This document shows, one piece after another, positions 19,293-43,074 of a stretch of DNA of 64,000 nucleotides. The stretch is from Chitinophaga lutea. GTDB lineage: Bacteria > Bacteroidota > Bacteroidia > Chitinophagales > Chitinophagaceae. Position numbers and translations under genes: made by a program. The notes beneath the pieces were generated by a model that saw nothing but the letters and a program-made list of their open reading frames with translations, did no database searches and was not told the DNA's origin. Numbering within the stretch: the stretch's first letter is position 1; each line of letters begins with the position of its first letter. Where the stretch lies: assembly GCF_003813775.1 (NCBI RefSeq), contig NZ_RPDH01000003.1:496001-560000 (forward strand), given 5' to 3'.

Positions 19293-22200
19293 TCAGTCAG
19301 ACAAATTGCTCAGCAGCAGGTACAACGGCACCTGCAGCACGGGCCGGCTATTGTCGTCCGAAAATACCGTCAACGCGAAAGTGAATTGCCCGGCGTTGCT
19401 TTCCGGATCATGCCCTTTCAGCCACAGATCGAGTGCGCCGGCGATAATAGCCGCCATGGCCGCGCCATGATCTTTGGCCGTAACGGTAGCGCTGGGCAGC
19501 AACAACACCGGCAATTGCACGTTGAAGGCGGCATTCGCCATCGTGTACTGGTATTCCGCATGGAACTTGATCAGCAGATCGGCGCTCACATCCTGCATGA
19601 GCGCGGCGAACAGCTGGGTTATGTTGTCCAGCATCGTGCGCACCTGTGGTGCGGGGAATATGTTGCTGTTGATGGTAGACACATCTACCGCCTGGTTGCT
19701 GCTCAGCAGCGGGATCAGCCGGTCGTAGAACCGTATCCACGGTGTTTGATAGATGAACCTCGGGTTGGTCGGCAGCCACTGCCCATCACGATCCTGCAAC
19801 AAATACTGGTTGCGTATCACGCTGGCGCCGGCCCAGCTGTTCTGCAATTGCAGGATGTCCAGCGGGGTCATGCGCACCGTCCGGTCGGGCTCCGTATTGC
19901 GGTCCGCAAACAGGAGGTAATCGCCATCCTTGTTTTTATACACGTACGTATTGTCCGCACCGCTAACCGCTTCGGCGGTGTACCCATCGATATCTACTGC
20001 AGGCATCATCGCCAGGGGATTGCCGGCATCGGCGATCACGGTCACGAGCAAACGTTCCGTATCGGTCTGGGCGCTTTCGGTGATGATATACGACAGGGTC
20101 ACGTCTGCCAGCGGCAACTGGCGGGCGGCATTGGACCTTTTGACCGCCTTGCGCGGGTTCACCTGGTTCCAGTTGCTCCATGCCGTAGCCACACCGGACA
20201 CGATGGTCAAAAACGCCTGCACGGCATTGTTGGCGGCCTGTGCGGTGCTGTTATTGTCTTGGACGTCCTGCGCGGTCAATGGCAGCAGGTAGGTCAGGAA
20301 GTCGGCGTGAATGGCGTCGTACACCGCCATGAACTGCGCCAGCGCCTGGTCGAGCGTGGGCGTATCATCGAGGGCTTTTCTTCTCGCGGCCACATTCGAG
20401 AGCGGTACGTTGAACTGCACCTGCGTATGAATGGTATCCTGCGCGGCGGAGAGGTTCTGGTACGTGTACCGGTAGTTCCATGTTCTCACCTGCGGAATGG
20501 TGATAGGCGGCACCGCTCCGTCGTTCACCGGGTATTCGGATGCCTGTGAAAGGATCGACGGCGGGGTGGGATAGGCCCGCAGCGGCACGGGAATGTCTAC
20601 CGGGCCGATGTCTCCCATCAGCGGGTCGAGCGGTATGATGAAGGTGAGCCACGATGACGCGAGGTAGCCGGTGATGCCCGGTACGGTATGAATGTCGCGC
20701 TCGATATGGCTGACGTTGTAACGCATCTGTTTGAATGAGAAACTGCGGCTGGCGGCCATATCCCGCGCTTCGAACATGTACGTCAACCACGAAGGGCCAT
20801 TGCCGAGCGGCACCTTGGCGGTGGAAAGCGTATACTCGGTGCTGGCGGGATCCGTGATGGGCAGCGACGGATCGGTGCCTTTCATGGAACCATAGAGTTG
20901 CGGTACGTACGGCGCTTCGGGCGGCTGATTGTTGCTGCCTTCCCAGCCGGAGTTGATCGTCACCGGTGTTTGTACCGCCGCCGTATAACGATAGGCGTTC
21001 GCCAGCGCAATCAGCGTGAGTTGTTTCCATTTGTCCTGCGCATTGCCGATGTTGGCTTTCGCCGTGCTGCCGGGCGTGATGATATAATCGATCGTTCCTT
21101 CTATCGCTTCCGCCAGTTGCTGTTTCTGATCCAGCACCTTCTGCAGCGTAACCCCATTGTCCAGCAAAAAGGCCGGCACCGCATAGGCGGGGCTCAGGAA
21201 GGCGTCTGCCGCTTCGAGGAACTGCAGTCCCCAGCTGTCGAGGTCGATGCTGCTGAAATGCTGCGTCACCGCCGCCCCGGAAGGATATGCTTTCCCGCTG
21301 CTGTAAGGCGATATGCCGGCATTGAAAGTGAGCAGCGTATTGGCCAGCGGGATGGGCGCGTAATAAAACACGGCACTGTTATCGAACGTATACCGGATGC
21401 CGCTGGCCCCGGTACTATCCATCCGCACCACCCACAACGCAGGCAGGTTGTCCGGGCCGGCCTGTTGTGTACCGGCAGCTACTTTCAGCAGAATGCCTTT
21501 TGTGGGCTGGTCTTTAAACGCGGCTTCAAACAACTGGGCAAAGGGCGTAAGGGAGAGGTAGCCGGAGTCGGTATCCGCGGTTTGTCCGCACGGCACGCCC
21601 TGCGACTGCGGTGGCACCGTAGTACCGGCACTGGCCACGCCCGGCGTTTGCGCAAAGGCGGGATCAACATGGGCCGTGCGTTCCATGGTTACCGACAGGG
21701 TGAGCGGGAAGGTGTCCGAATAGGCGGCAATCGTGGAAGGCTGCACCGCTGAAGTGAGCGTATACGGTACCGGCACGCCGGAAACACTGCTACCGGCCAG
21801 AATGCCTTTCAGGTACGCGATGATTGGCTGTACCAGTTCGCTGCTCAGCCTGCCGACATCGATCGTTCTTTTGCTGCCTCCGGGAGCGGCTTCCGTGCCA
21901 TCGATGGAGCAGTTGAAATACATCGCCATATCGGCGCCCAGCTGGTAATACAACCGCATGTAGGTCTGGAGGTCGATGGATGCCCGGTCTTTGGCGCTGT
22001 CGCCTTTGTAGCGGGAGGTGTCGAAACAGAAACTGAGCTGTATTTCCGGCGTGCCGTCCGGGTTGCCGAACTGATAATACACGCTCATCGACGGCCATTG
22101 CGATACGGCCGCGATCTGGTCGGTGTACAGCAATGCCATGCCTAACGTCAAGGGCGATACGTTGCTCATGGGCATGTTGCCGAACATATCCTGCCAGTTG

Positions 22201-25200
22201 AGCTGCATCTGCACCGTGGTGCCGGTCCCGGCGTAGGGGTTGGGATAGTCCTTATCGGTGCCGGACGCCTGCACGTATTTGTAGTAAGGGATCACCGCGG
22301 AATAGTTCCAGGTGTCTTCCGGCAGGTCGAGCGTTTTGCCGGCGCGCAGGTCGGCGATCTGCTGATCGTCGAGCGAATCGGCCGGGCCGGTGGGCAGCAG
22401 GTTCTGGTAAGCGCTGATACCCGGCAGCAAGGCGCCCAGCAGATTGAACTGGTTTTGCAGGTACACCTGGTCTTCCGCGATCGTCGGCGGTAACTTGGCG
22501 GGGTTGTATTCCCCGGGATTGTTGCGCAGCACAGAGTAACCGACGGTGCCCGCCGGAATGCTCGCAATACGGGTGATGATGTTGGCGCTTTGCGCGTATA
22601 CGCTGGTTTTGGAGGTGTCGATCCCGTCGCCGGTAATCACACTGTTTACGAACGATTCTACCGGCAGGGTTTTGTACGTGATCACCAATGTGAGCATGGC
22701 GGTGCCGTCTTCATTGAACAGGTAGTCCGGCAGGCCGCTGCCGTCGTCCGCACGATAATAAACATAATACCCGCCTGAGCGCACGATGCTGTTTTCCCAC
22801 AGCAGCTGGACGAAGTTGCCCGGCGTATTCAGCGTATTGTAACCCGTTGCCGCCACGGCTTTGGCCGCCATCATGGATGGATGTGTTTCCGTGCTCAGGT
22901 TTGCCTGTACGATGGCGAACTGCACCGCGCCGTTGGCTGCAGACACGAAACCGCCCGTGCTTGTATCGACAGGGTTGGGCTGGAAGAGCAGCTGCACCTG
23001 GTCGATAAACGCATCACTGCCATGCTGCTGGTCCTGGATGTAAGTCAGCAGGTCCTGCAGCAATATCACGCCGGCATCGTCGGCGCCGGTGAGGTTGAAC
23101 ATGTTGCCTGCCAGCGGTGTACCTGGCGCCAAGCCCGCCGTTATTTTCTGCGCGGTAATGGTGATGGCGGTGCCCCAGCGGTATTGCGAAACCGTCCCTT
23201 TTTTGTTGGTGCTGCCTTCCGGGGTGATGGTCTGTATGGAGAAGGGCAGCGCCTGGCCGGCATGCGCGGCGAATACGGCCGTCAGGTTGGCCGGCACCAG
23301 CCACAATACGGGCGGGTTTTGCAGGCCGGGGAAATATTCCCCGGGGTAATGCCATTGGGCGGGACTGTTCAGCGTAAAAGACTGCGGCGCATCGGTGTAG
23401 TTAACGATGGCCGACGGGGAACCTGCCTGCAGCGAAGGTTGCAGTACGATGTTGCGCATGTCGTTGATGCGCTGGATCTCATCGTTATTGATGGTCACCG
23501 TGAGCGTATCGCCGGTAACGCCGTTGAAGGTGATCCAGGTGTCGGCCGCCTGTTTGGTCAGCAGCACGGAGTAGGCTTCGTCTTTCGCGAGATTGGCCGG
23601 CAGGGGGAATTGTTGCCCCGTAAGCAGGTAGAGCGGCGTGATCGCCCCGGCAGACGCATCCGGCGGTGCGGGGAGGCGCAGGCCGTGCAGCAGGAAGCGC
23701 GAAGCCATGCCGCCTATTTCACTGGTATTCGCTTCGGTGATCACGGCGTTGACGAGATCCACCGCTTTCATCGTCGTCTTATCGTTGTCCTGCATGTAAT
23801 CGAGCGCATCCTGCAATACCGATTTCGCTACCAGCGCAATAAAATCCGTGAACATAAACGTGGGCATGCTCAGGTTGGGCTGCACTTCATAGTTGGGGTC
23901 GCTTACCTGCGTGCAGTCGTTACCGTAGTAAGCGGCCGTCAGCGCGTTCTCCGCGTCGATGCTCAGCATGCGGAGCAGGGCGGTGATATCGGTCACGTAA
24001 TGGGAGTCGCCCGTCATGCTCTGCGTGGCGAAATTCACCAGCGGGCCTTTGGTGCCTTTGTAATCGGTCTGCAATTGCAGCGCGGGCAATGCCGGGAACA
24101 CGGCCGCCTGCAGATCCTGCTGGGTGGCCGGGTCGGCGGCGGTAATCTTTATGGAGAAGAATGTTTTCAGGAAACTCAGGATGTCATACTGTTTGCTGTT
24201 CTGGTAGTTGAAAGGCGCCACGTTATCGGGCCGGTTGGAGAAATAACAGAGCAGCAGCGCCAGCTGGTCGGCCGTCACTTCCTGTTCATTCAGCCAGCTC
24301 AGTTTGATATCCGTTTTGCCATTGGTGAGCAATGCGCTGATGCACCAGTACAATGTACCCGTGGCCAGCGCTTTCACGCCATTGACAGTATTGGCAATTC
24401 CCGCGTCCGCCGTATCGATGTAAAACATGGCGCTGTACTGCGGGCCGGGCGTGCCATCCCCGGAGAGCGTGAGCTGCGGGATGAAATAGAGGTCCAGCAG
24501 GTAAGTGGTGCCGGTATCCGGCGTTACCGGTTGCCAGCAGAGCGTTACCGGCGTATCCAGCAAACGGCGGCGTTTGGCGGCGGGCGGGAGTACGCACTGG
24601 TTCCACATCGCGTCCTGTGTATGGTTTTCGCCGATGACAAACGCGGCTTTGACCATTGCCTTGAAACTGAGCGATATCCTGATCTTGAACAGGCCCAGAT
24701 TGATGGTCACCTTCAGCGAAACGGATACGCCGGCTTCGAAAGTAATGGGTATTTCCATGTAGCTTTCGATGGTGATGCTCACGTACACATACGCGAGGAT
24801 ATCCACGCGCGCGGAAATGATCGCGAAGTTCACTTCCCCGTAAATATGCCCAACCAGCCCGAATGTGCCCTGCAGCTTGTAGTAGATGTCGTCCGTCAGC
24901 GGTTCGCCATTGGCCCTTTTCAAGCCCTTCGTGGGCCTGAAAAATGCCAGCACACCCTGGAAGATGCCCACGGCGGTGAGGTACAGCCCGGCTTTCAGAA
25001 TGCCCTCGTCGACCGTTTTGCCCACGCCCAGTTGCAGCCCCAGCCCGAAAGATATCACGGGGTTGAAGATGCCGCATTGGGTAGTGGGTATATTGGTGGC
25101 GGTAGCGCCGCTCAGGTAACCGAAATAGAATCCGCCCGCCCCGATAAAAGGAAATACCTGCACGGTAAAGGAACGGGAGAAGTCGGTGATGCTGGCGGGG

Positions 25201-27680
25201 AAACCGAAGTCGAGGTAAAAGTTGCCGTTGGTGTAGATCTTGATCCCGATCAGCGGCAGGGTGATGGACACCTCGCCGAATTCAAGATGCCTGAATTCAT
25301 CGGGCAGCTGCAGGTCTATCTGATAAACACCGATGCTGTCGTTGACTTTTTTGTACAAAATCTCGAAATACAGGTTGCCGAAATACTCCGCCGTTTTATC
25401 GACGGAGATCATCATGCCGTACAGTTCCGGGTCGTTGAACACGGCGGCGAGGCGGTAAAACTTGGCGACGGTGAAATCGGCCCCCATCAGCCAGTGACTG
25501 TTCTGGTCGAAACTGAGCGCACCCGCGCCGTTGGGTTTGATGGGCACGGTGTTAGGCTGGCTGTTGGTATCGGAAAAAGCGGACCGCATCACGGTGATGG
25601 CCGTCTGGATATTGTTGATGTTCTGCGGCTGGGTGAAAGCGACGTGCTGCCCCATGCCGAGGAAGTGCAGGTTGAAGAACTGGTCGCCCATGCCCGGTAC
25701 GCCCGGCATGTTGCGCACCTCGCTGCCCTTGCCTGCCAGCGGCGCCGTGTCCGGATTGCCGCTGTCGATTTTCATGCCGAGGAAACTGCCTTCGAATCCG
25801 AGGTACACACCGGTCTCGTCTTTGGTAAGCGTCACGGCGCTCACTTTCAGGAACCCGAGGTCGATGTTGCTCTGGTAAATCACCTGCATGCTGTCTTTCG
25901 ACGTATCGTTCAGGTTGCGGACGTACTGCAGCGACAGCCCGTTGAGGCTGATGCTGTTCAATACCTTCCACGGCGCAGACAAAGTGAAGCCGGGGTCGAA
26001 GGAGGCGATCAGGTGGGTGATGATATCGCCGAGCGACATGCTGCCGAACGTAATGGTAATGATGTCCTGGTTCTTCACACTGTCGTGCACGTACTTGCAA
26101 ACGATGCCTTCCCATTCCAGGTACACTTCCGTGTCCGGCGTGCCGAACTTGTAGCCCACTTTGAACAGCATCCCGAGGAACAGCGCTTCTCCGGCGATGG
26201 TGCCGGATGTTTTGCCGTTGCTGTAAACAATGTCTACGCTGGCTTTGAGGTTCAGGTTAAAACTGTTATAGTTCAGCGTCCACAGCACTGAGCCGCCCGT
26301 ATTGTAGGTGGCGGGCTTGCCGGTGCTGCTGTTGGGCACATTGGCGGTGAGGTAGAGGTTGCTGACGCTCAGGCCCACGCCGTTCACCCACGACGGCAGG
26401 TTTTCCATGCCGAAGGGTTTCAGGAAGGTGAATGCAATGTCGATGAGCGATATCTGCTGGTCCGCGCCGGTTTTGGCGCCGTAACTCCAGCCGCTGCCGT
26501 CGTAGCCGGCAAATACGGTGAGGTCTACGCCCTGGTCGGGCAGTTTGGGGCCGATGTGGAAGGTGCCGCTGAACTGACCCGTAGTGCTGCCCTGCTGGCT
26601 GCTGATCATCAACGCCAGCGCCGTCAGCGTCAGCGAAAAATCATTGTTGACGGTGAGGAAGGTCCAGTCGGCCTTCACGCCGCAACTGATGCTGTAACTC
26701 TGTGACGAAGGCGCCACCTGCATGCTGAAGCTGGTGATGGCCGATTGCAGGTCGAGCGTAACATCGGGGAGGAACATCGTCACCAGGTCGCCGAGCTGTA
26801 TCTCGCCCTCGGTCAGCGTTACGCTTGCTACAAAGTTCGGAACGGTAGCGGAAACGGTCAGCGTATTGGAACCCGCCGGTCCGATGGTGAAATTACCGGT
26901 GATGGTAAACGACACGGTGCGGTTTGCGGGGTCGCCGGGGGCGGTCACAAAACATGCGATGCTGATGCCGGTCACGGCCAGCTTCGGCAGCAGCTGCCAT
27001 TGATAAGTGGGAGAGGTGCTGATGGTAAGCCCGAAATAACTGATGGAGGACGCCGTTGCATCGTAGAGGATATCGATCTCTTTCAACCCCAGGTCGGTGA
27101 GGGTGCTGAAAGGCTGCGGTAACAACGTGGTCAGGTTCACGCCGCCCACCAGCTGGAAGAAATTGGAGATGCTGGGATAGGGATCGAGAAAGTTACCCTG
27201 GAACAGCCATTTGTTATCGACGATGGGAAAGGCCATCCTTACTTCCAGCGTAGTACCTGCTTCAATCTTTCCGCTGACCCAACCCGTCACCGGCAAAGGC
27301 GATTCCGGCGCCGTCACCATGAAGGCAGGATCCTTCACGGCAAACCAGTCCACGCCCGGCAGGCCCAACTGCTGGCCTACAGGCGCCAGGTCCAGTTGTG
27401 CGTACAGGATGCTCTGGTTGAGGTGCAGCCGGATTTCGGAAGGAGCGGCAGCGAACGTGAACGAATCCGTGGTGCCTTTGATCAGGATGGTATCGGCATC
27501 CGGCATGCTGAGCGCCGCCTTGTCGATGATCAGTTGTTTGTCCGGCACAATCTGCGTATAGGCGCTGGCGATACCAGGCAGCTGCAGGGTGGCGGCGGCC
27601 GAAATAAACGGCAGCTGATCCTGGCTGTTCACCTGTTGCTGGAATCCTTCGTACAGTTGTTGCAATTGCTGCGGCGTCAT
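19293..27680 (-). CDS. Giant 2795-residue beta-rich protein of unknown function
   Basis: I do not recognise this protein with certainty. The N-terminal ~1050 residues are a long series of amphipathic beta strands with recurring short motifs (e.g. ITGNFTIGPAG, FSGTFHIGPKLPDQG, FEGSFLGMKID), ending in strongly hydrophobic alternating stretches around residues 880-1040 (SFGLGLQLGVGKTVDEG, VTINLGLFKIRISLSFKAMV). They recall large bacterial and fungal proteins of the DUF6603 kind, but that is memory only. The remaining ~1700 residues are mixed, with FQPNPVDTSTGGFVSAANG and YYVYYRADDGSGLPDYLFN. No signal peptide, transmembrane helix, T9SS tail or catalytic motif is seen. It is the last gene of a six-gene run, 30 bp after the 502-residue paralogue, and converges on the CoA-transferase gene. 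Confidence 0.85.
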   Translation of the reverse strand: MTPQQLQQLYEGFQQQVNSQDQLPFISAAATLQLPGIASAYTQIVPDKQLIIDKAALSMPDADTILIKGTTDSFTFAAAPSEIRLHLNQSILYAQLDLAPVGQQLGLPGVDWFAVKDPAFMVTAPESPLPVTGWVSGKIEAGTTLEVRMAFPIVDNKWLFQGNFLDPYPSISNFFQLVGGVNLTTLLPQPFSTLTDLGLKEIDILYDATASSISYFGLTISTSPTYQWQLLPKLAVTGISIACFVTAPGDPANRTVSFTITGNFTIGPAGSNTLTVSATVPNFVASVTLTEGEIQLGDLVTMFLPDVTLDLQSAITSFSMQVAPSSQSYSISCGVKADWTFLTVNNDFSLTLTALALMISSQQGSTTGQFSGTFHIGPKLPDQGVDLTVFAGYDGSGWSYGAKTGADQQISLIDIAFTFLKPFGMENLPSWVNGVGLSVSNLYLTANVPNSSTGKPATYNTGGSVLWTLNYNSFNLNLKASVDIVYSNGKTSGTIAGEALFLGMLFKVGYKFGTPDTEVYLEWEGIVCKYVHDSVKNQDIITITFGSMSLGDIITHLIASFDPGFTLSAPWKVLNSISLNGLSLQYVRNLNDTSKDSMQVIYQSNIDLGFLKVSAVTLTKDETGVYLGFEGSFLGMKIDSGNPDTAPLAGKGSEVRNMPGVPGMGDQFFNLHFLGMGQHVAFTQPQNINNIQTAITVMRSAFSDTNSQPNTVPIKPNGAGALSFDQNSHWLMGADFTVAKFYRLAAVFNDPELYGMMISVDKTAEYFGNLYFEILYKKVNDSIGVYQIDLQLPDEFRHLEFGEVSITLPLIGIKIYTNGNFYLDFGFPASITDFSRSFTVQVFPFIGAGGFYFGYLSGATATNIPTTQCGIFNPVISFGLGLQLGVGKTVDEGILKAGLYLTAVGIFQGVLAFFRPTKGLKRANGEPLTDDIYYKLQGTFGLVGHIYGEVNFAIISARVDILAYVYVSITIESYMEIPITFEAGVSVSLKVTINLGLFKIRISLSFKAMVKAAFVIGENHTQDAMWNQCVLPPAAKRRRLLDTPVTLCWQPVTPDTGTTYLLDLYFIPQLTLSGDGTPGPQYSAMFYIDTADAGIANTVNGVKALATGTLYWCISALLTNGKTDIKLSWLNEQEVTADQLALLLCYFSNRPDNVAPFNYQNSKQYDILSFLKTFFSIKITAADPATQQDLQAAVFPALPALQLQTDYKGTKGPLVNFATQSMTGDSHYVTDITALLRMLSIDAENALTAAYYGNDCTQVSDPNYEVQPNLSMPTFMFTDFIALVAKSVLQDALDYMQDNDKTTMKAVDLVNAVITEANTSEIGGMASRFLLHGLRLPAPPDASAGAITPLYLLTGQQFPLPANLAKDEAYSVLLTKQAADTWITFNGVTGDTLTVTINNDEIQRINDMRNIVLQPSLQAGSPSAIVNYTDAPQSFTLNSPAQWHYPGEYFPGLQNPPVLWLVPANLTAVFAAHAGQALPFSIQTITPEGSTNKKGTVSQYRWGTAITITAQKITAGLAPGTPLAGNMFNLTGADDAGVILLQDLLTYIQDQQHGSDAFIDQVQLLFQPNPVDTSTGGFVSAANGAVQFAIVQANLSTETHPSMMAAKAVAATGYNTLNTPGNFVQLLWENSIVRSGGYYVYYRADDGSGLPDYLFNEDGTAMLTLVITYKTLPVESFVNSVITGDGIDTSKTSVYAQSANIITRIASIPAGTVGYSVLRNNPGEYNPAKLPPTIAEDQVYLQNQFNLLGALLPGISAYQNLLPTGPADSLDDQQIADLRAGKTLDLPEDTWNYSAVIPYYKYVQASGTDKDYPNPYAGTGTTVQMQLNWQDMFGNMPMSNVSPLTLGMALLYTDQIAAVSQWPSMSVYYQFGNPDGTPEIQLSFCFDTSRYKGDSAKDRASIDLQTYMRLYYQLGADMAMYFNCSIDGTEAAPGGSKRTIDVGRLSSELVQPIIAYLKGILAGSSVSGVPVPYTLTSAVQPSTIAAYSDTFPLTLSVTMERTAHVDPAFAQTPGVASAGTTVPPQSQGVPCGQTADTDSGYLSLTPFAQLFEAAFKDQPTKGILLKVAAGTQQAGPDNLPALWVVRMDSTGASGIRYTFDNSAVFYYAPIPLANTLLTFNAGISPYSSGKAYPSGAAVTQHFSSIDLDSWGLQFLEAADAFLSPAYAVPAFLLDNGVTLQKVLDQKQQLAEAIEGTIDYIITPGSTAKANIGNAQDKWKQLTLIALANAYRYTAAVQTPVTINSGWEGSNNQPPEAPYVPQLYGSMKGTDPSLPITDPASTEYTLSTAKVPLGNGPSWLTYMFEARDMAASRSFSFKQMRYNVSHIERDIHTVPGITGYLASSWLTFIIPLDPLMGDIGPVDIPVPLRAYPTPPSILSQASEYPVNDGAVPPITIPQVRTWNYRYTYQNLSAAQDTIHTQVQFNVPLSNVAARRKALDDTPTLDQALAQFMAVYDAIHADFLTYLLPLTAQDVQDNNSTAQAANNAVQAFLTIVSGVATAWSNWNQVNPRKAVKRSNAARQLPLADVTLSYIITESAQTDTERLLVTVIADAGNPLAMMPAVDIDGYTAEAVSGADNTYVYKNKDGDYLLFADRNTEPDRTVRMTPLDILQLQNSWAGASVIRNQYLLQDRDGQWLPTNPRFIYQTPWIRFYDRLIPLLSSNQAVDVSTINSNIFPAPQVRTMLDNITQLFAALMQDVSADLLIKFHAEYQYTMANAAFNVQLPVLLLPSATVTAKDHGAAMAAIIAGALDLWLKGHDPESNAGQFTFALTVFSDDNSRPVLQVPLYLLLSNLSD

Positions 27681-27710
27681 AACATATCGGTTATTAAGCG
27701 AATGATGGAA

Positions 27711-29219
27711 TTAGTTCTGCGTGTTCACATACCCGAGGAAAAAAAGCAAACCGAGTATCAGTTTGTCTTCCTCCTCGTTATGAAAAAAGGCGCTCAGGCC
27801 CGCAAAGTATTGGTACATCTGGGTGGTGTTGTCGTAAGAATCTTCTATCTGCTGGCTCACTTCGGTTACACTGTTGACGACCGCCTGGCCGGCGAGCGCA
27901 GTGTTTAACAATCCGGCTGCCGTGTTCATACATTTGGCCCTGCGCGTTGCCAGCACGGACATTGGTGACTGCTGTGCATGCAGCGGCAGGGTGGGATAGG
28001 TAGTAGTTGATTTGATCACGTTGAGGTACGGCATGTTGAGGTTCATTACCAGGTTGGCGGTTCCCTTACCTTCAAATACACACGGCAGCGTACTGCAACT
28101 GTAGAGATAGTTGAACGTAGCGATGGTCAGCCCGCCCATATTGATCACCAGGATATGATTGTTCGCGTTCGGAAGCGCATTGATCGCCTGCTGGAGCGTT
28201 GGCGCAGTATAGGCCAGTACCGACACGCGTTGCGGGATCTGGTTACCGTTGATGTAGCCGTTCAGGGCGGCCATATTGTCTGCGTTGCCGCTGAGAAAAG
28301 ATGCAAGGTTCTGATATGGGCCGGGACTGATGGTGGCGGCTACCAGGATGATGGCGGACCGCCGCAACCGCTGAACGTTGGAGGTTTGCTGCCTGTCCGC
28401 CACGGCGCAGATAAGGTTGAGCAGTACGCTCTCCGGCCGGATGCTGGGATCAGCTTCCACAAAACCGGGAAAATCTGCATTGTCGCCGATACCATATACC
28501 GGCAATAAATTCACGTTGGCGTTATGGCCGGTGGTAACGGCCAGTACATCCTGGTAAGGCTGCTGTTTACCGGGGAATGTACTGTTCAGGTCAATGAGGT
28601 CCTGATGCGTCAGTTGCGGTGCGGGGAGGAAGTAGCCGCGCTTCCGGTAGGTGATATTCCCCAAAGCCTGCTGCTGCTCCAGTACCGGCCAGGTATTCCG
28701 TAAGGAACTTTTCCGTTGCACGGCATTTTGTTTGCTCCATTCAAACGGTTGCAGTTTCAGGAAGAACGTTACGTTCACCTTGTCCGCCAGGTTGACGCTG
28801 TCGTTATCATAACCGCCGGTGAATCCGAAACCGAGTTCGGGGAAGTTGTTGGGATTGGTTTCAAAGAATTCGAGCGTGTAAAAGGTCAACGTGGCGTTGT
28901 TGATGACGACGGGCGCATTGGTGGCCGGGTTAAAGCCCGGGATGAGCCGTTTGAGCTTGTTGCCCGTGTTATCGTCGGAATCGTCGTAAATCACCTGTAC
29001 GGTTTGCTGAAAGCCGAGCGATATCAGGCGGTACAGCATGTTTACCGATGTGGCCTGGTGCCCCACGCCGCTCACCGCCGGCACAAACAGGCGGATAATC
29101 GCGTTTTCCTGCTGGTCGGAAAGGAAGTTGCGGATAAGGGTGAGCTTTTGCTGGAATCCTCCGGCAAAAACGTCGTTCACGTTCGTGAGTAGTTGTTTTA
29201 TGAATTGAATAAAAGGCAT
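27711..29219 (-). CDS. 502-residue protein of unknown function, paralogue of the upstream 506-residue protein
   Basis: Uncharacterised protein without signal peptide. Near residue 42 it has IIRLFVPAVSGVGHQATS then MLYRLISLGF and VQVIYDD, a strand-glycine loop-helix-strand pattern like the N-terminal Rossmann half of GT-B enzymes. Later it has LPCVFEGKGTANLVMNL followed by MPYL, which recalls the donor-binding EG..TA segment of such enzymes. The neighbouring 506-residue protein has matching stretches in the same order: VPATSNFGNQTS, ITGGWDG against FTGGYDN, LQPYLWS against LQPFEWS, and LEGMSTASLVLNLGTPF. Both end in a hydrophobic segment (DKLILGLLFFLGYV here). The GT-B reading is a hypothesis. 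It lies 19 bp after its paralogue and 30 bp before the giant gene. Confidence 0.85.
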   Translation of the reverse strand: MPFIQFIKQLLTNVNDVFAGGFQQKLTLIRNFLSDQQENAIIRLFVPAVSGVGHQATSVNMLYRLISLGFQQTVQVIYDDSDDNTGNKLKRLIPGFNPATNAPVVINNATLTFYTLEFFETNPNNFPELGFGFTGGYDNDSVNLADKVNVTFFLKLQPFEWSKQNAVQRKSSLRNTWPVLEQQQALGNITYRKRGYFLPAPQLTHQDLIDLNSTFPGKQQPYQDVLAVTTGHNANVNLLPVYGIGDNADFPGFVEADPSIRPESVLLNLICAVADRQQTSNVQRLRRSAIILVAATISPGPYQNLASFLSGNADNMAALNGYINGNQIPQRVSVLAYTAPTLQQAINALPNANNHILVINMGGLTIATFNYLYSCSTLPCVFEGKGTANLVMNLNMPYLNVIKSTTTYPTLPLHAQQSPMSVLATRRAKCMNTAAGLLNTALAGQAVVNSVTEVSQQIEDSYDNTTQMYQYFAGLSAFFHNEEEDKLILGLLFFLGYVNTQN

Positions 29220-29238
29220 CGTCGGGATTTAGGATTGT

Positions 29239-30759
29239 TCAGCTATCCGCATACTCGAGTATGCAGAACAGCCCGGCCAGTAGTTTGTCGTTTTGCTGGT
29301 TGCTGAAGAAGGATTTCATTAACAGGAAATTGAAAGACGTAAATGTAAACGGCGTCACCGCGGTGTTGATGAAACGCCCCAGTACGCCGGAAGGCAGGAA
29401 GTCCGGTCCCAGTTGCGGATCGTTGAGGATACCTTCCCACATCCGCTGGGTGTAGCCCAGTACGTCAGAATGATTATTGCAGAAGTTGGAAAACGGTGTG
29501 ACGTTCTGCTGCGGAGGCGGCAACCGGTAAATGTTGACGGTCTGGTTCGACTGAAGATGAAAAAACGGTGTGCCCAGGTTCAGCACAAGGCTGGCGGTAG
29601 ACATGCCTTCGAGCACATTCAGCAGGGTGGTGCGGCTGAACACATAGTCGAACACCACTTTCGGCTCCCGCCTGATCGCGGCCACGATCACATCATAACT
29701 GCCGCTGGTGGCAAAGAGCGTAATGTTCCGCCCGATGCAGTTGTCGTCCGTATCAAGCAGCAGCACTCTCTTGAATGCGGTCAGATAGCCGTTGGTGGAC
29801 AGGTATTCATAGCGCTTCGGCAATGTTCTGCCGTCCAGCCGCGTACCGGACGGATTGAACAACGAGCCCTGCAGCAGCAGGCGCAACCGGTTGTAATCGC
29901 CGGGGTCGGTACCGGCCAGCATGGGAATGATGGTAGGTTTCGTCAACCCCAATGCCTTGTTCCGGAAAATGATGCCGCAGATCACGTTGAAGAATATATC
30001 CGGGAAGCGGGCCAATGGCCTGCCGGGGGAAAAATAAATGGGCATCATTTCGGCGATACCCCTGTCCAGCAGATCATCGATGGCCCTGATGCAGCCTTCC
30101 TGCCTGGGATACAATTGTTTGAAAAGCAGCCAGTCGTTGGTGGTCAGCGCCGGAGGAGGAACATAATACGCCTTCCTGGTAATATCCACTCCGTTGGGGA
30201 AGTTCAGGGTGACGGGCATATCCGGCCCGCCGACGTACATCACGTTGGTGCCCTGGGCAAGCTGTGCGCCGCTCCATAGATACGGCTGCAGGCAGCAGAA
30301 ATTCGAGGTTTGCAGCTTGGTGCAGATGGCGGCCGAATTGCCGTCCCAGCCGCCGGTAATGCCCAGCCTTACCACCGTGGTAGGATTGAAGCCCGCCTGT
30401 TCGGAAAAGTACACATTCGCATTGCCGATCTGGAAAACGGTGGGCGGCGTATCGGGCAGCCCCAGGATCAATATCTGCAGTTTTCTCCATGCAACGCCCG
30501 GCCCGTCAGGGTCCTGGTCTACCCAGATGATGCGCAGGTTCAACGCGCCCATGCTGATCAGGCGGTACATGATCATAATGGTGCTGGTCTGGTTCCCGAA
30601 ATTACTGGTGGCTGGCACCCATATGCGAATCTCCTCGTTCGCGGTGTTCAGTTTTTGCAGGAACGTGTTCAGCCTCAGCATGGAGGCATCGAAGTTCACC
30701 GTGGAAGCGCTTGCGCTCCCCTGCGATAACGTTTCCAGTGTTTTTTTACCGCCGCACAT
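29239..30759 (-). CDS. 506-residue protein of unknown function, paralogue of the 502-residue protein
   Basis: Uncharacterised protein without signal peptide. After a ~40-residue leader it reads EIRIWVPATSNFGNQTS, MIMYRLISMGA and LRIIWVDQDPDG, the first of several blocks shared with the next gene product. Other shared blocks are GITGGWDGNS, CCLQPYLWSG, RKAYYVPPPALTTNDWLLF, FFNVICGII, LLNVLEGMSTASLVLNLG and the C-terminal NDKLLAGLFCILEY. The blocks are collinear across the whole length, so the two genes arose by duplication and then diverged strongly. A GT-B-like fold is possible but no conserved catalytic residue can be asserted. It starts 21 bp after the 1142-residue gene. Confidence 0.85.
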   Translation of the reverse strand: MCGGKKTLETLSQGSASASTVNFDASMLRLNTFLQKLNTANEEIRIWVPATSNFGNQTSTIMIMYRLISMGALNLRIIWVDQDPDGPGVAWRKLQILILGLPDTPPTVFQIGNANVYFSEQAGFNPTTVVRLGITGGWDGNSAAICTKLQTSNFCCLQPYLWSGAQLAQGTNVMYVGGPDMPVTLNFPNGVDITRKAYYVPPPALTTNDWLLFKQLYPRQEGCIRAIDDLLDRGIAEMMPIYFSPGRPLARFPDIFFNVICGIIFRNKALGLTKPTIIPMLAGTDPGDYNRLRLLLQGSLFNPSGTRLDGRTLPKRYEYLSTNGYLTAFKRVLLLDTDDNCIGRNITLFATSGSYDVIVAAIRREPKVVFDYVFSRTTLLNVLEGMSTASLVLNLGTPFFHLQSNQTVNIYRLPPPQQNVTPFSNFCNNHSDVLGYTQRMWEGILNDPQLGPDFLPSGVLGRFINTAVTPFTFTSFNFLLMKSFFSNQQNDKLLAGLFCILEYADS

Positions 30760-30780
30760 AATGTTTGTTTTAAGACCGCT

Positions 30781-33700
30781 TTATTTGGCAGCATAAGCCG
30801 CATACCATCCCAAGCTCTCGGGTGGCGCCTGGTCGTCGGGATTGCCGAACAGGAAAAAGCCGATGTTGGCATTGGATGGAAACGACAGGCTCAGCAGCTT
30901 CAATACGATTTTGTTGATCCGCATGAGGTATTGCATGTTACCGGGACTACTGCCCGTGGCGAGGCTGAGGGTAATGGTGCCGATGTCTAGCTTCAGTACG
31001 CCCTGCAAACTGAAAGATGGGGCCTGCGGGTTGACGCCGGGGAGTTTCATGGCGGCGGAAGCGCCGGTGGCACCTGCTTTCCAGCCGGCCATGAAAGTGG
31101 TGTTGAACCCTGCCGCACTGGCGAGCGCGCCGGGTGTGCCCATGTTCAGCGAAAACAATAATCCGTACCAGTCGTCGCTGATGCCCTGCTGTTGTTGCAG
31201 CGTGGGCAACAGCACATTCAGATAGCCCTGCTTGTCGGGCGTATTGTCTTTATTCCCCGTGGCCATGCCCGTCAGCTGCAGCGGGAAGTGCCGGTACAGG
31301 CTGTCGTTGCGCGCCGAGCTCTGCCCGATGTCGAACGCGATCTGCCCCACATCGAATGTGTAGGTTTGCGTGGTAGGCGTGTCCAGCGGGAAACTCAGGT
31401 GCAGGTACATGTTGGAAAATGAAATACCCCGGTTGTTGGGCGTTTCGCCGGGCTCGTTGCCGAACGACAATAAATCAAATCCCTGTAGTTCGAAGAAGTT
31501 GAGGTATCCCCAGAAAGAGAATACCGCCTCCACGTTCTGCGCGCCCTGCTGCGGACTGGAAGTGCTGAAACTGGATTTTAGTATTTCCACATCCTGCACA
31601 ACGGTGCTGTTCAGGTAAAGCAGATGGTCACCGCCGGCGTTGAAGGTGTAGGACGGAATGCCGTCGTGGTTTTCATACGCGCCCTGCAATACCAGCAGGT
31701 TCTGGCGATTGTCGCTGTTCACCACCTCACCGAACAGCCGGTTCACCGTCAGCGCAATGTAACTGTTGAAGTTGCGGATCTTGGAATTGGTAAAAGCGAT
31801 TTTGAGGAGTAGCACCACAAAGGAATATTCCACCGACTGGTTGATGGCCACCTGTTGCTCGTAGACGGTAACATTGCTGCCCAGTGCGGCGAACACCGCG
31901 TCTTTATAATCGATGAGCCCGAACAGCGAGCTGGTGGGGAGCATGGACAATACGCCGCCGTCGTTCTGTACCACGTTCATGTCTATGCCGAAGTGATGCG
32001 CCTTGAAACGGGCGAGGTCGATACCGGCCAGCAGGCCCTGTAAATCCGGCGGGAACTCCTGCAGGTCGATGTCCACACCCAGCGATATCACACCCTGCCA
32101 CATCGGGTCGGTGGCGATGGAGTAGAATTTATAGTAGTCTTCATCGTGGTTGATAACATACTGGTCGATGCCGTCCTGTATGTATTGCTGCAGCCACATG
32201 CCGAGGTTGGGGATGCCGTTGTCTGCCGTGTTGTTGAACTCCTCCGGCATGGTCCACAGCTGCGGATTTTGCACGTTGTCGAGCAGCGTGCCGCTGCGGA
32301 ATTTGAAGATGATCACGTTGTTGTACTGCCCGAAAGTGTTTTTGTCCGGCACACGGAGAATGAACGGCCAGCCTTCGATGTACATCTCGTTCTCGAATTC
32401 TCCCAGCACCGGTACGCCATCCTTGATGGGGTTATAGGAAATGACGAGGAACAGCTGGTTCGACTGGAAAGCCGTTTGCAGCACTACGGGCAGGTTCTTA
32501 AAGGCCATACGGTACACGGGAGACAGCTGCCCGTCGTTTTCCAGGAACTGGTTGCTGGCGAGTTGCAGCAGGGTCCAGGCGCCGGTGTTTTGATCGATCT
32601 CGATATAGAAACCCTGCGGACTGGTGGACGGAATGATGTTTTGATCGTTTTTTCGCTCTATTTTTCTCAATTGCGCCTGCGCGGCTACACCGATGGCGGA
32701 TTTCCGGGCAGGACTGAGAATTTGCGCCTCAAACGCGCCTGCTTCGGTAGCCGCCGCTTCGTTGCTGTAAGCCGCCAGCGGAAAACATACGGCAGGCGAG
32801 GAGTTGGAAAGAATACCCGCATCCGGCGTCAGGTACCCCAGCAATTGTTTATCCGATGCAAATACATCCTGCCCCGCAGCGAACAGCGCTGCGCCCTGCG
32901 GTTGGGCGTGGTAAACCACGGCCGCATTGGTGGTGTTGCCCTGCACGATGCCCGCCCACGCCGTGAGGTAGGTTTCATCCAGCAGCGGCCGCACCTGCGC
33001 ACCGCCGGCGGTATTGCCGGCAGGCGTCACCGGGAATTGCAGCGCGTAGGCCGCATGGCCGGGGTAGAAACAGATGAAATCGCCGGTACTGCCGCTGACC
33101 TGCGGTGTGAAGCTGATGGACTCTGTACCTGCAAGGCCACAGAGCAGACGCATTTGCCCGGCGCTGTCGCGGTAATCGGCATACGCCGCATCAATGGCAA
33201 GGGTGTACTGCCCGGCGGGCGACATGTACCACACAGCCCCCGGCACCGTGGTGGTCCTTTGTGTGAATACGAGCAGCGCGCTGCCGGCGGTGGGGAAGTT
33301 GGCGCTGCCGTTGATGGTTTCCATCAACACGAAAGGTTGCAGCATCAGCGGGTAGCCGTAGTCGGTCGTAAAAAAGGCGGGCAGGATGGTGGGGCGTTGC
33401 TGTTGTGTGCCGGTGTTCAGCGTTTGCCCGGTGAGCGCCAGGTAAGTGACCGTAGTGTTCAGCAGATCAGGCGGGTAAATACTGGCCTGGCAAAGAACGA
33501 GGTCGTTGAGGTTGCCGTTGGGGAACAGCGGGTAATTCTGCATGGCCAGCTGCAACTTCTTTTTGTCCGGGTAGAAGTATTTGATGGCGGTATCGAAGGC
33601 CGTGAAATCGGTGGCGCTGTTCAGCCCGATCACAAAACGCATGCAGCCCATGCCGGGGCCGGTGAAGGGAATGTCTAACGGTGGCGGCTGCACTTTTGTA

Positions 33701-34209
33701 TTGGAGTTGATCTGGTCTGCCCGCAGCGCAATCGCCTGCGCCTGGTCGGGGCCGCTGAGCTGGAAGCGGTTGTTGGTATCGTCGATCCTGATATTGACGT
33801 TCTGGTTATTGATGAACAGGGAAGCATAATTACCCCCGAAATGGAAATTGAATTGCCGCAACACCGAAAACCCGCCGCCCTGTTGCAGGAGAAATAGCCC
33901 GGCCACATTGCTGTCGCCGAGCGCGTTGTCGGGCTGCAACAGCCAGAGTATGGCATTGGTGGGCGGGAAGGGTTGTGTGATGCCGGCCATGTAGGCCCAC
34001 ACGTTTTGCACCAGCGCATCCGCCGTGATGGTGGGGCCGGCAGCTGCAAAGAGATAGAACCCTTTCAGGGCGGCCGTTTCGGCCAGTGTGAGCGAAGGGT
34101 TGGCGCTGGTGTTTTGGGCCAGTACAAAAGCGCCCCAGCCGTTGTCTGCTGGAATCAGGTACAATGATGCATTGCCGGAAGATGCATTGCTGAAGGCAAA
34201 CGTACTCAT
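30781..34209 (-). CDS. 1142-residue beta-rich protein of unknown function
   Basis: I do not recognise this protein. It starts MSTFAFSNASSGNASLYLIP with no signal peptide, and the N-terminal ~550 residues are beta-rich, low in charge and rich in Asn, Gln, Ala and Thr. A short charged stretch (LRKIERKNDQN) separates this from the C-terminal half, which contains IKDGVPVLGEFENEMYIEGW and strand-rich segments. The C-terminus reads INKIVLKLLSLSFPSNANIG, FLFGNPDDQ and LGWYAAYAAK. The composition resembles the giant protein encoded at the end of the same run, suggesting they form one structure. It lies 6 bp after a small secreted-protein gene and 21 bp before the paralogue pair. Confidence 0.85.
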   Translation of the reverse strand: MSTFAFSNASSGNASLYLIPADNGWGAFVLAQNTSANPSLTLAETAALKGFYLFAAAGPTITADALVQNVWAYMAGITQPFPPTNAILWLLQPDNALGDSNVAGLFLLQQGGGFSVLRQFNFHFGGNYASLFINNQNVNIRIDDTNNRFQLSGPDQAQAIALRADQINSNTKVQPPPLDIPFTGPGMGCMRFVIGLNSATDFTAFDTAIKYFYPDKKKLQLAMQNYPLFPNGNLNDLVLCQASIYPPDLLNTTVTYLALTGQTLNTGTQQQRPTILPAFFTTDYGYPLMLQPFVLMETINGSANFPTAGSALLVFTQRTTTVPGAVWYMSPAGQYTLAIDAAYADYRDSAGQMRLLCGLAGTESISFTPQVSGSTGDFICFYPGHAAYALQFPVTPAGNTAGGAQVRPLLDETYLTAWAGIVQGNTTNAAVVYHAQPQGAALFAAGQDVFASDKQLLGYLTPDAGILSNSSPAVCFPLAAYSNEAAATEAGAFEAQILSPARKSAIGVAAQAQLRKIERKNDQNIIPSTSPQGFYIEIDQNTGAWTLLQLASNQFLENDGQLSPVYRMAFKNLPVVLQTAFQSNQLFLVISYNPIKDGVPVLGEFENEMYIEGWPFILRVPDKNTFGQYNNVIIFKFRSGTLLDNVQNPQLWTMPEEFNNTADNGIPNLGMWLQQYIQDGIDQYVINHDEDYYKFYSIATDPMWQGVISLGVDIDLQEFPPDLQGLLAGIDLARFKAHHFGIDMNVVQNDGGVLSMLPTSSLFGLIDYKDAVFAALGSNVTVYEQQVAINQSVEYSFVVLLLKIAFTNSKIRNFNSYIALTVNRLFGEVVNSDNRQNLLVLQGAYENHDGIPSYTFNAGGDHLLYLNSTVVQDVEILKSSFSTSSPQQGAQNVEAVFSFWGYLNFFELQGFDLLSFGNEPGETPNNRGISFSNMYLHLSFPLDTPTTQTYTFDVGQIAFDIGQSSARNDSLYRHFPLQLTGMATGNKDNTPDKQGYLNVLLPTLQQQQGISDDWYGLLFSLNMGTPGALASAAGFNTTFMAGWKAGATGASAAMKLPGVNPQAPSFSLQGVLKLDIGTITLSLATGSSPGNMQYLMRINKIVLKLLSLSFPSNANIGFFLFGNPDDQAPPESLGWYAAYAAK

Positions 34210-34215
34210 GGCAGA

Positions 34216-34650
34216 TCAGGGATTTATGGCTCGTACATACCAGGCCGTTAGTGCGCCCTGGAATGTGAACCGGGTGTTGTTCGCTTCTACCGAATAGAGG
34301 AAGTTACCGGTAAGCGTGCTGGCTCCGCCAGACGCTTCCAGGTTTAAAGTGATATAGCCGTTTGAATAGCTGTTGCCCAGTTTTACGTTGAACTGGTAAC
34401 TGTTATTGGTGGCGGTTAACGTGCAAACGCCCACGGGTTGCGTAGCGAGCAGCAGCACGCAGGTCACAACGGTACCCGTGCTGTCCAGTGCAAAACCCAC
34501 CAGCAGGTCGCCCAGCTGGCGGTTTTTGCATTGGCCGGGCTGCATGAATGCCCGGGGAAAACAGGTCGTGTCATTCACTGCTCGTTTGCCCGTTTGCGCA
34601 TGCGTGAGCACCGCCGGTAACAGACACAGCAGGAGCAGCGCTGTTTTCAT
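34216..34650 (-). CDS. Small secreted beta-rich protein of unknown function
   Basis: Protein of 144 residues with a clear signal peptide, ALLLLCLLPAVLTHAQ, so it is the only member of the six-gene run with an export signal. The mature ~125 residues are predicted beta strands rich in Thr, Asn and Gly (TLTATNNSYQFNVKLGNS, SGGASTLTGNFLYSVEANN) and contain four cysteines (CFPR, QCKN, TCVL, VCTL) that could form disulfides in the periplasm. No family is recognised. Its end, FTFQGALTAWYV, faintly resembles the end of the next upstream product (FNAQIASWSN). It lies between the 111-residue gene (35 bp) and the 1142-residue gene (6 bp). Confidence 0.75.
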   Translation of the reverse strand: MKTALLLLCLLPAVLTHAQTGKRAVNDTTCFPRAFMQPGQCKNRQLGDLLVGFALDSTGTVVTCVLLLATQPVGVCTLTATNNSYQFNVKLGNSYSNGYITLNLEASGGASTLTGNFLYSVEANNTRFTFQGALTAWYVRAINP

Positions 34651-34685
34651 GAAAAATGTCCGGTTACGATCTGCCTGTACCGGTC

Positions 34686-35021
34686 TTAATTGGACCAGCT
34701 GGCGATCTGTGCATTAAAAGGAGTTTTGTTTTTCCCGTCCTGGTCGGTAGCCTCGCCCTCACAGGTAACCTGCCCGGTCTCGAACCCGAAGGCCGCACGG
34801 AAGCTGATCGTCTGGATGAACACAACCTGGTTGCCGCGTTTGAATTCGATGTTGTTCGCAGTGGGTTGTACAGGAGATAAAGTGATTTGTCCCAACAGGC
34901 CGGAAGGATTGTTGAAACTGATCTGGGCTACCTGCATGCCGCCATTCAGGGATACTACGGTGTTGGTGGTCACGCTGTTGACGAGGTTTGCCGACTGCGT
35001 GTAGGGGTACTGTGTTGCCAT
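34686..35021 (-). CDS. Small beta-rich protein of unknown function, first gene of the run
   Basis: Protein of 111 residues, predicted all-beta, without signal peptide (MATQYPYTQSANLVNSV). It contains VSLNGGMQVAQISFNNPSG and FRAAFGFETGQVTCEGEA and ends FNAQIASWSN. No family is recognised. ATG 35021 is preferred to the in-frame start at 35045 because the extra eight residues (MILQILLH) add no recognisable feature and 35021 lies further behind the promoter-like element at 35089-35096. As the first gene of the run it may be a chaperone-like or structural partner of the large proteins, which is a guess. Confidence 0.7.
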   Translation of the reverse strand: MATQYPYTQSANLVNSVTTNTVVSLNGGMQVAQISFNNPSGLLGQITLSPVQPTANNIEFKRGNQVVFIQTISFRAAFGFETGQVTCEGEATDQDGKNKTPFNAQIASWSN

Positions 35022-38960: not shown

Positions 38961-39015
38961 AACTGATGATTTTGGTGGAAGAAAAGCGCGTGGAACATAC
39001 AACACCGTGTCATTA

Positions 39016-39081: not shown

Positions 39082-43074
<3,993 letters not shown>

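Follow-up and report, generated by a model that had tools for sequence, protein, structure and literature searches.

A candidate modular assembly of Chitinophaga lutea that combines a constant two-protein chassis with exchangeable enzyme heads

We analyzed a stretch of 64,000 nucleotides from Chitinophaga lutea (hereafter, the window) and found that a run of six genes on its minus strand (Table 1) probably encodes a modular, polymorphic enzyme-carrying assembly, in which an exchangeable enzyme cassette is combined with a constant chassis and which may serve a role in conflict. Sequence comparisons among related loci indicate that P0003 (the core) and most of P0006 (the giant) constitute the constant chassis and are inherited together, and that the enzyme (the head; here P0005 and its divergent paralogue P0004) behaves as a cassette, its place being taken in sister loci by enzymes of unrelated fold. 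The same comparisons indicate that, in loci with glycosyltransferase (GT)-type heads, the cassette is exchanged together with giant residues 1-100, and that about 460 residues were involved in the swap nearest the window. The original prediction, that these genes form an undescribed assembly of jointly acting products, is partly supported.

Table 1. Features of the six-gene run and its putative regulator (positions in the window)
Feature	Position	Strand	Description	Remark
P0007	35129..35779	(-)	NarL/LuxR-type response regulator (by eye)	likely regulator of the unit
P0001	34686..35021	(-)	111 aa, accessory protein without signal peptide	
P0002	34216..34650	(-)	144 aa, accessory protein, signal-peptide-like N-terminus (by eye)	
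P0003	30781..34209	(-)	1142 aa, core protein, part 1 of the constant chassis	
P0004	29239..30759	(-)	506 aa, second GT-like head, divergent	
P0005	27711..29219	(-)	502 aa, GT-B, EarP-like enzyme head	
P0006	19293..27680	(-)	2795 aa, giant chassis protein	
P0006 residues 1-100	27381..27680	(-)	proposed docking segment exchanged with the head	identity tracks head identity, 7 loci
P0006 residues 1-460	26301..27680	(-)	stretch differing between the window and its metallo-beta-lactamase-type relatives	window versus L092 identity

All six open reading frames (ORFs) are present with the sizes originally given and are separated by gaps of 35, 6, 21, 19 and 30 bp, and most homologues of P0001 begin at the same place as its ATG start. 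The predicted paralogy of P0004 and P0005 was confirmed (28% identity, E 1.9e-27), P0002 has a hydrophobic N-terminal stretch resembling a signal peptide (by eye), in line with the description of one small protein as exported, and P0003 is mostly beta in its AlphaFold model, in agreement with the description of a beta-rich giant. Signal peptides were not seen by eye in P0003, P0004, P0005 or P0006, as had been stated for the two giants. A response regulator of 215 or 216 aa, similar by eye to P0007, occupies the same position in all three of the closest loci (L092, L093 and L094), and another response regulator lies upstream in L041; the P0007 gene may be part of the unit. Just upstream of P0007, a gene at 36066-39005 (-) encodes a chondroitinase AC-type polysaccharide lyase of family 8 with CBM96 and a T9SS sorting tail, and a gene at 39082-43074 (-) encodes a 1330-aa hybrid two-component regulator (by eye) with sensor repeats, a kinase, a receiver and an AraC-like end, a domain make-up that is presumably that found in polysaccharide-utilisation loci.

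None of the six proteins matched Pfam, NCBIfam or PADLOC above the cut-offs (best sub-threshold Pfam match, E 0.07), and two PHROG matches, both below the cut-off, were to families of unknown function (E 0.049 and 0.062). A PDB sequence search with P0003, P0005 and P0006 returned no match at E up to 1. In Pfam and NCBIfam, no known secretion or trafficking module was matched above the cut-off in P0003 or P0006, and phage-tail-like injection families (eCIS, T6SS and tailocin; sheath, tube and baseplate) gave no match to the six proteins other than weak ones below the cut-off (Pfam, E 0.07-0.27). LysM repeats were not detected in P0006 by Pfam at E up to 1. In the libraries and open-access literature searched, there is no family or described system for the chassis.

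We next consider how the unit recurs in other genomes. A profile of the P0005 family detected seven loci among named genomes, and the order of the P0001-P0002-P0003-P0005-P0006 homologues is conserved in six of them (L031-L036; Mucilaginibacter, Pedobacter and Flavobacterium), with about 48-52% identity for the P0003 and P0006 homologues. Because of this conserved order, the arrangement is not attributable to chance. Homologues of P0002 were found in all six of these unfused loci and in all three of L092-L094; those of P0001 were found in the same six, and in one of the three, where the ORF filter can hide small genes.

In 13 of 14 other same-genus genomes, a single fused ORF of about 3900-4100 residues comprises an N-terminal P0005-like domain and a P0006-like remainder; the exception is G014, where two ORFs encode the giant. 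A fused head-giant ORF of 3521 residues was also found in Diplocloster agilis (Clostridia), and a P0003-like gene precedes the fused ORF in all 14 same-genus genomes and in Diplocloster. Relatives of P0006 fused to a GT head occur in loci of the genus and in Azospirillum, Mycetohabitans and Diplocloster, and such fusions are direct evidence for a joint function of head and giant. In L046, L056, L058 and L059, two adjacent genes make up the giant, and in L056 the split follows about the first 600 giant-profile positions.

Among 79 genomes of the genus, the core was detected in 24; P0006 was detected in these and in two more, 26 in total, the two additional matches being weak (E about 5e-6). In all 24 core-positive genomes, a single contig carried both the core and the giant match, at most about 3.5 kb from each other. 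At the level of the phylum, the unit is rare and was found in 4 of 395 genomes, one of which is that of the window. A tblastn search with P0003 matched 8 of 72,556 plasmid records, from four phyla (Azospirillum (2), Lysinibacillus, Mycetohabitans, Nostoc, Paenibacillus, Tistrella and Embleya), and no phage record among the 50,697 searched. With a fused giant as the query, 108 proteins were recovered, the sources of which include Pseudovibrio, Dickeya, Rhodopseudomonas, Pyxidicoccus, Oscillatoria and Burkholderia. In one genome (G033, contig C44), a locus with metallo-beta-lactamase-like heads (L093) and a locus with a fused GT head (L024) lie about 130 kb apart.

The exchange of heads was examined on a core tree of 42 loci (a quick search with long branches, the deep joins of which are unsure). 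These loci comprised 26 with a GT-like head, 7 with metallo-beta-lactamase-like heads, 3 with EEP-like heads, 2 with paired HNH heads and 4 with no recognisable head; separate head genes, two of them in the window, were present in 7 of the GT-type loci, and in the other 19 the head formed one ORF with the giant or at least with its first part. The core of L022 was kept in this tree, and its giant, which is in two ORFs, was left out of the giant alignment. In L092, L093 and L094, which belong to the same genus, two metallo-beta-lactamase-like genes with signal-peptide-like N-termini replace the two GT-like genes, with cores 57% and giants 61-62% identical to those of the window. The window is sister to these three loci (support, 100), and the clade that includes them comprises 7 GT and 3 metallo-beta-lactamase rows. 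Over the whole tree, the five head labels required 9 changes (minimum possible, 4), or 6 without the headless loci, compared with 15.3 on average for shuffled labels; therefore, the heads are clustered but not fixed.

Many of the non-GT head assignments are weak. For 11 non-GT heads compared with Pfam, matches had E values from 1.4e-7 to 0.026, of which 3 passed the curated cut-off; the head of L059 (Tistrella) gave no match and was assigned by eye, and for the heads of L093, L094 and L098 and for one HNH gene of L096 the assignment came from the alignment only. In the alignments of the metallo-beta-lactamase-, EEP- and HNH-type heads, catalytic motifs can be recognised (HxHxDH with HHGS, GDFN with SDH, and paired Cys with EH). 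The first is present in a partial form, HxxxDH, in L097, L098 and L059, and SNH replaces SDH in L044.

We further compared the head with successive parts of the giant. Between the window and L092, the identity of P0006 was 10-41% per 20 residues over residues 1-460, then 50-85% up to residue 680, and it was 76-90% per 100 residues over residues 501-1000. With L031, a GT locus of lower overall similarity, the window's giant shared 47% identity over the first and 66% over the second hundred residues. Within Flavobacterium, the GT-type loci L033 and L036 have cores 78% identical, heads 29% identical and giant residues 1-100 only 18% identical, compared with 73-97% per 100 residues beyond residue 200, except for two steps of 67%. 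Across the 21 pairs of seven GT loci, head identity correlated with that of giant residues 1-100 (r=0.96; Mantel test, 2 of 5040 permutations as high), although this result comes from seven loci and leans on the split between L035/L036 and the rest. The corresponding values were r=0.36 for giant residues 101-600, r=0.18 for residues 601-2795 (Mantel test, 1023 of 5040) and r=0.19 for the core, and giant residues 601-2795 followed core identity closely (r=0.98). Metallo-beta-lactamase-type loci, the heads of which are not homologous, and P0004 were left out of this comparison, P0005 standing for the window. Over the first two hundred residues of the giant, the distant metallo-beta-lactamase-type locus L042 was 26% and 31% identical to L092, and 23% and 22% identical to the window; since L042 is hardly more similar to L092 than to the window, the rule of co-exchange is not simple between head types.

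The fused giants were also compared, using the 94 of the 108 matches that have 3700-4300 residues. Head identity correlated with that of the next segment and of residues 651-1150 (r=0.86 for both) and less with the body from residue 1151 on (r=0.58-0.63), whereas body regions correlated with one another at 0.92-0.96. Body identity reached 70% or more in 62 pairs, 13 of which had heads less than 40% identical; head identity reached 70% or more in 30 pairs, and in none of these was the body below 50%. For example, P0060 and P0075 have bodies 95% identical and heads 29% identical (23-36% in steps of 60 residues as far as residue 900), and P0082 and P0120 have bodies 92% identical and an N-terminal stretch of 14-48%. 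Near-identical bodies with divergent heads thus point to a constant chassis with a hypervariable N-terminal head, for which recombination would be the simplest explanation.

Such hypervariable heads on near-identical bodies could also belong to an adhesive particle, extracellular or cell-bound, whose heads are binding modules rather than enzymes and vary under receptor selection; collagen-like and LamG neighbours at some loci agree with this, as does the loss of GT motifs from some heads (among the 94 fused heads, a loose GHQ pattern was present in 66 and an EGxxT-like pattern in 57, so that neither is universal). However, the aligned HNH, EEP and metallo-beta-lactamase-like heads keep catalytic motifs, and, among 122 rows, the GT head retains E383 in 90%, G384 in 94% and T387 in 85%, which makes heads that merely bind very improbable.

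In the structural model of P0005, a GT-B fold was matched over both halves, the nearest structure being EarP. When 21 members were scanned against Pfam, EarP gave no match at E up to 1, and profile-profile comparison with MurG/GT28 by hhalign, from which three wrongly chosen MurG rows were dropped, gave a probability of 0.3%. P0004 is 24-26% identical to P0005 and six other heads and has Asn at the position of His54 of P0005; it keeps most of the C-terminal motif of the head family, with GNQ instead of GHQ near residue 56. Judging from these differences, the P0004 and P0005 heads may not be equivalent. EarP is a protein-arginine rhamnosyltransferase in which D13, D17 and E273 are invariant and D13 and D17 essential (PMC5615199). 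P0005 is 9-12% identical to EarP, and D13 and D17 appear, judged by sequence position, to lack an acidic counterpart in P0005 residues 47-60, which contain neither Asp nor Glu; E383 is conserved. Unlike EarP, moreover, P0005 is carried by or beside a giant chassis. On the basis of the model, the chemistry of P0005 would be sugar transfer to a protein, perhaps to arginine.

A GT-B fold might also operate in a machine for the cell's own surface, in which GT-like proteins make or trim a glycan and the giants act as scaffold or conduit. The LysM repeats of many fused giants, the polysaccharide lyase that adjoins the unit in the window and the gene upstream of the core in L024, L029 and L030, which is glycosyltransferase-like by eye, are in line with such a machine. 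However, other enzyme types fill the slot in the sister loci with metallo-beta-lactamase-like heads, despite the similarity of their chassis to that of the window, and the window's lyase found matches in 21 other loci to its sorting tail only; we consider a glycan machine quite unlikely.

The small genes upstream of the core differ among loci. P0001/P0002 are replaced by collagen-like repeat proteins directly upstream of the core in L095:15749-17032, L029:14656-15903, L030 and L096 (PF01391 in two of four scanned), and by a paralogous pair of 226-267 aa with a motif like LPGNQPxxYxN...IPWN in L017-L023 and L025-L028 (one copy in L037); three proteins of the latter type gave no Pfam match above the cut-off. 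Hint-domain proteins lie near cores with EEP- or metallo-beta-lactamase-like heads (L044:4828-6483, L097:17506-19149 and L059:10963-12708). In the loci read, the stretch between head and giant contained no candidate for an immunity gene, except that this role might fall to the second copy of a pair.

Some related loci carry Hint, LysM, LamG and collagen-like proteins, which, together with a patchy spread and plasmid records in four phyla, lend the unit the flavour of a conflict system. The patchy, partly plasmid-borne spread might instead reflect intracellular defence, in which an invader in the cell would be sensed by the chassis, and the nucleic acid or translation apparatus of the invader would be destroyed or modified by the exchangeable enzyme, be it nuclease-like or glycosyltransferase-like. 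EEP, HNH and metallo-beta-lactamase folds, which make up three of the four head types, are common among nucleases, and the lack of signal peptides by eye in P0003, P0004, P0005 and P0006 would suit an intracellular site. Nevertheless, anti-phage defence models of PADLOC matched none of the six proteins at E up to 1, and Pfam showed no ATPase or nucleotide-signal domain in them; P0002 and the heads of L092-L094 have signal-peptide-like N-termini, and the Hint, LysM, LamG and collagen-like proteins fit roles outside the cell or in its envelope. Intracellular defence therefore appears unlikely. Because P0003 and P0006 lack signal peptides, whereas P0002 and the L092-L094 heads look exported, the parts of the unit are possibly located in different compartments.

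In the enzyme-carrying assembly that we favour, the N-terminal segment of the giant would dock or cage the enzyme, and P0001/P0002 and the other small proteins would be accessory or surface parts. The giant may hold the enzyme until a target is reached, which could be a competitor, a predator, a host cell or an invading phage, and the enzyme would modify a macromolecule there; export without a signal peptide might occur by lysis or by an unknown route. More tentatively, and with somewhat less than even confidence, we suggest that the unit represents a hitherto unrecognised class of conflict system spread over several phyla, in which two giants cage an interchangeable N-terminal head (EarP-like protein glycosyltransferase, EEP, HNH or metallo-beta-lactamase) that is swapped like a cartridge together with its docking segment, the version in the window delivering a protein-glycosylating toxin of an undescribed kind. 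If this is correct, a system of several phyla whose proteins have so far been annotated as 'hypothetical protein' or 'LysM domain-containing protein' becomes open to experiment; for example, P0006 residues 1-100 are predicted to bind P0005 but no head from another locus. With its capacity to take up unrelated enzymes, the chassis would also be a natural platform to hold and move cargo proteins, and, given the EarP-like head, protein glycosylation by GT-B enzymes of the EarP-like kind would no longer be confined to the translation factor EF-P.

Several fused P0006 homologues (from Chitinophaga, Pseudovibrio, Dickeya and others) bear the label 'LysM peptidoglycan-binding domain-containing protein', which covers the short LysM repeats only, the head, the core and the modularity lying outside it. 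As giants that could cage an exchangeable enzyme and need no immunity gene, the proteins of the unit are presumably comparable to Tc/Rhs-type cocoon toxins. Unlike those toxins, P0003 and P0006 contain no RHS/YD repeats and no SpvB, TcA or TcB family (Pfam and NCBIfam, E up to 1), and the head is at the other end. Polymorphic toxin systems consist of a large constant protein to which many unrelated enzyme modules are joined by recombination, with the toxin at the C-terminus and an adjoining immunity gene (PMC3482391). With these systems, the unit has in common the swapping of unrelated enzyme domains on a constant carrier and the presence of Hint and LysM/LamG nearby; it differs in that the variable module is N-terminal or a separate upstream gene rather than C-terminal, in that no known trafficking module was matched in its chassis and in that its chassis families are unnamed in the libraries searched. 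Since it shares the defining features of polymorphic toxin systems only in part, we describe the unit as working like one, without calling it a member.
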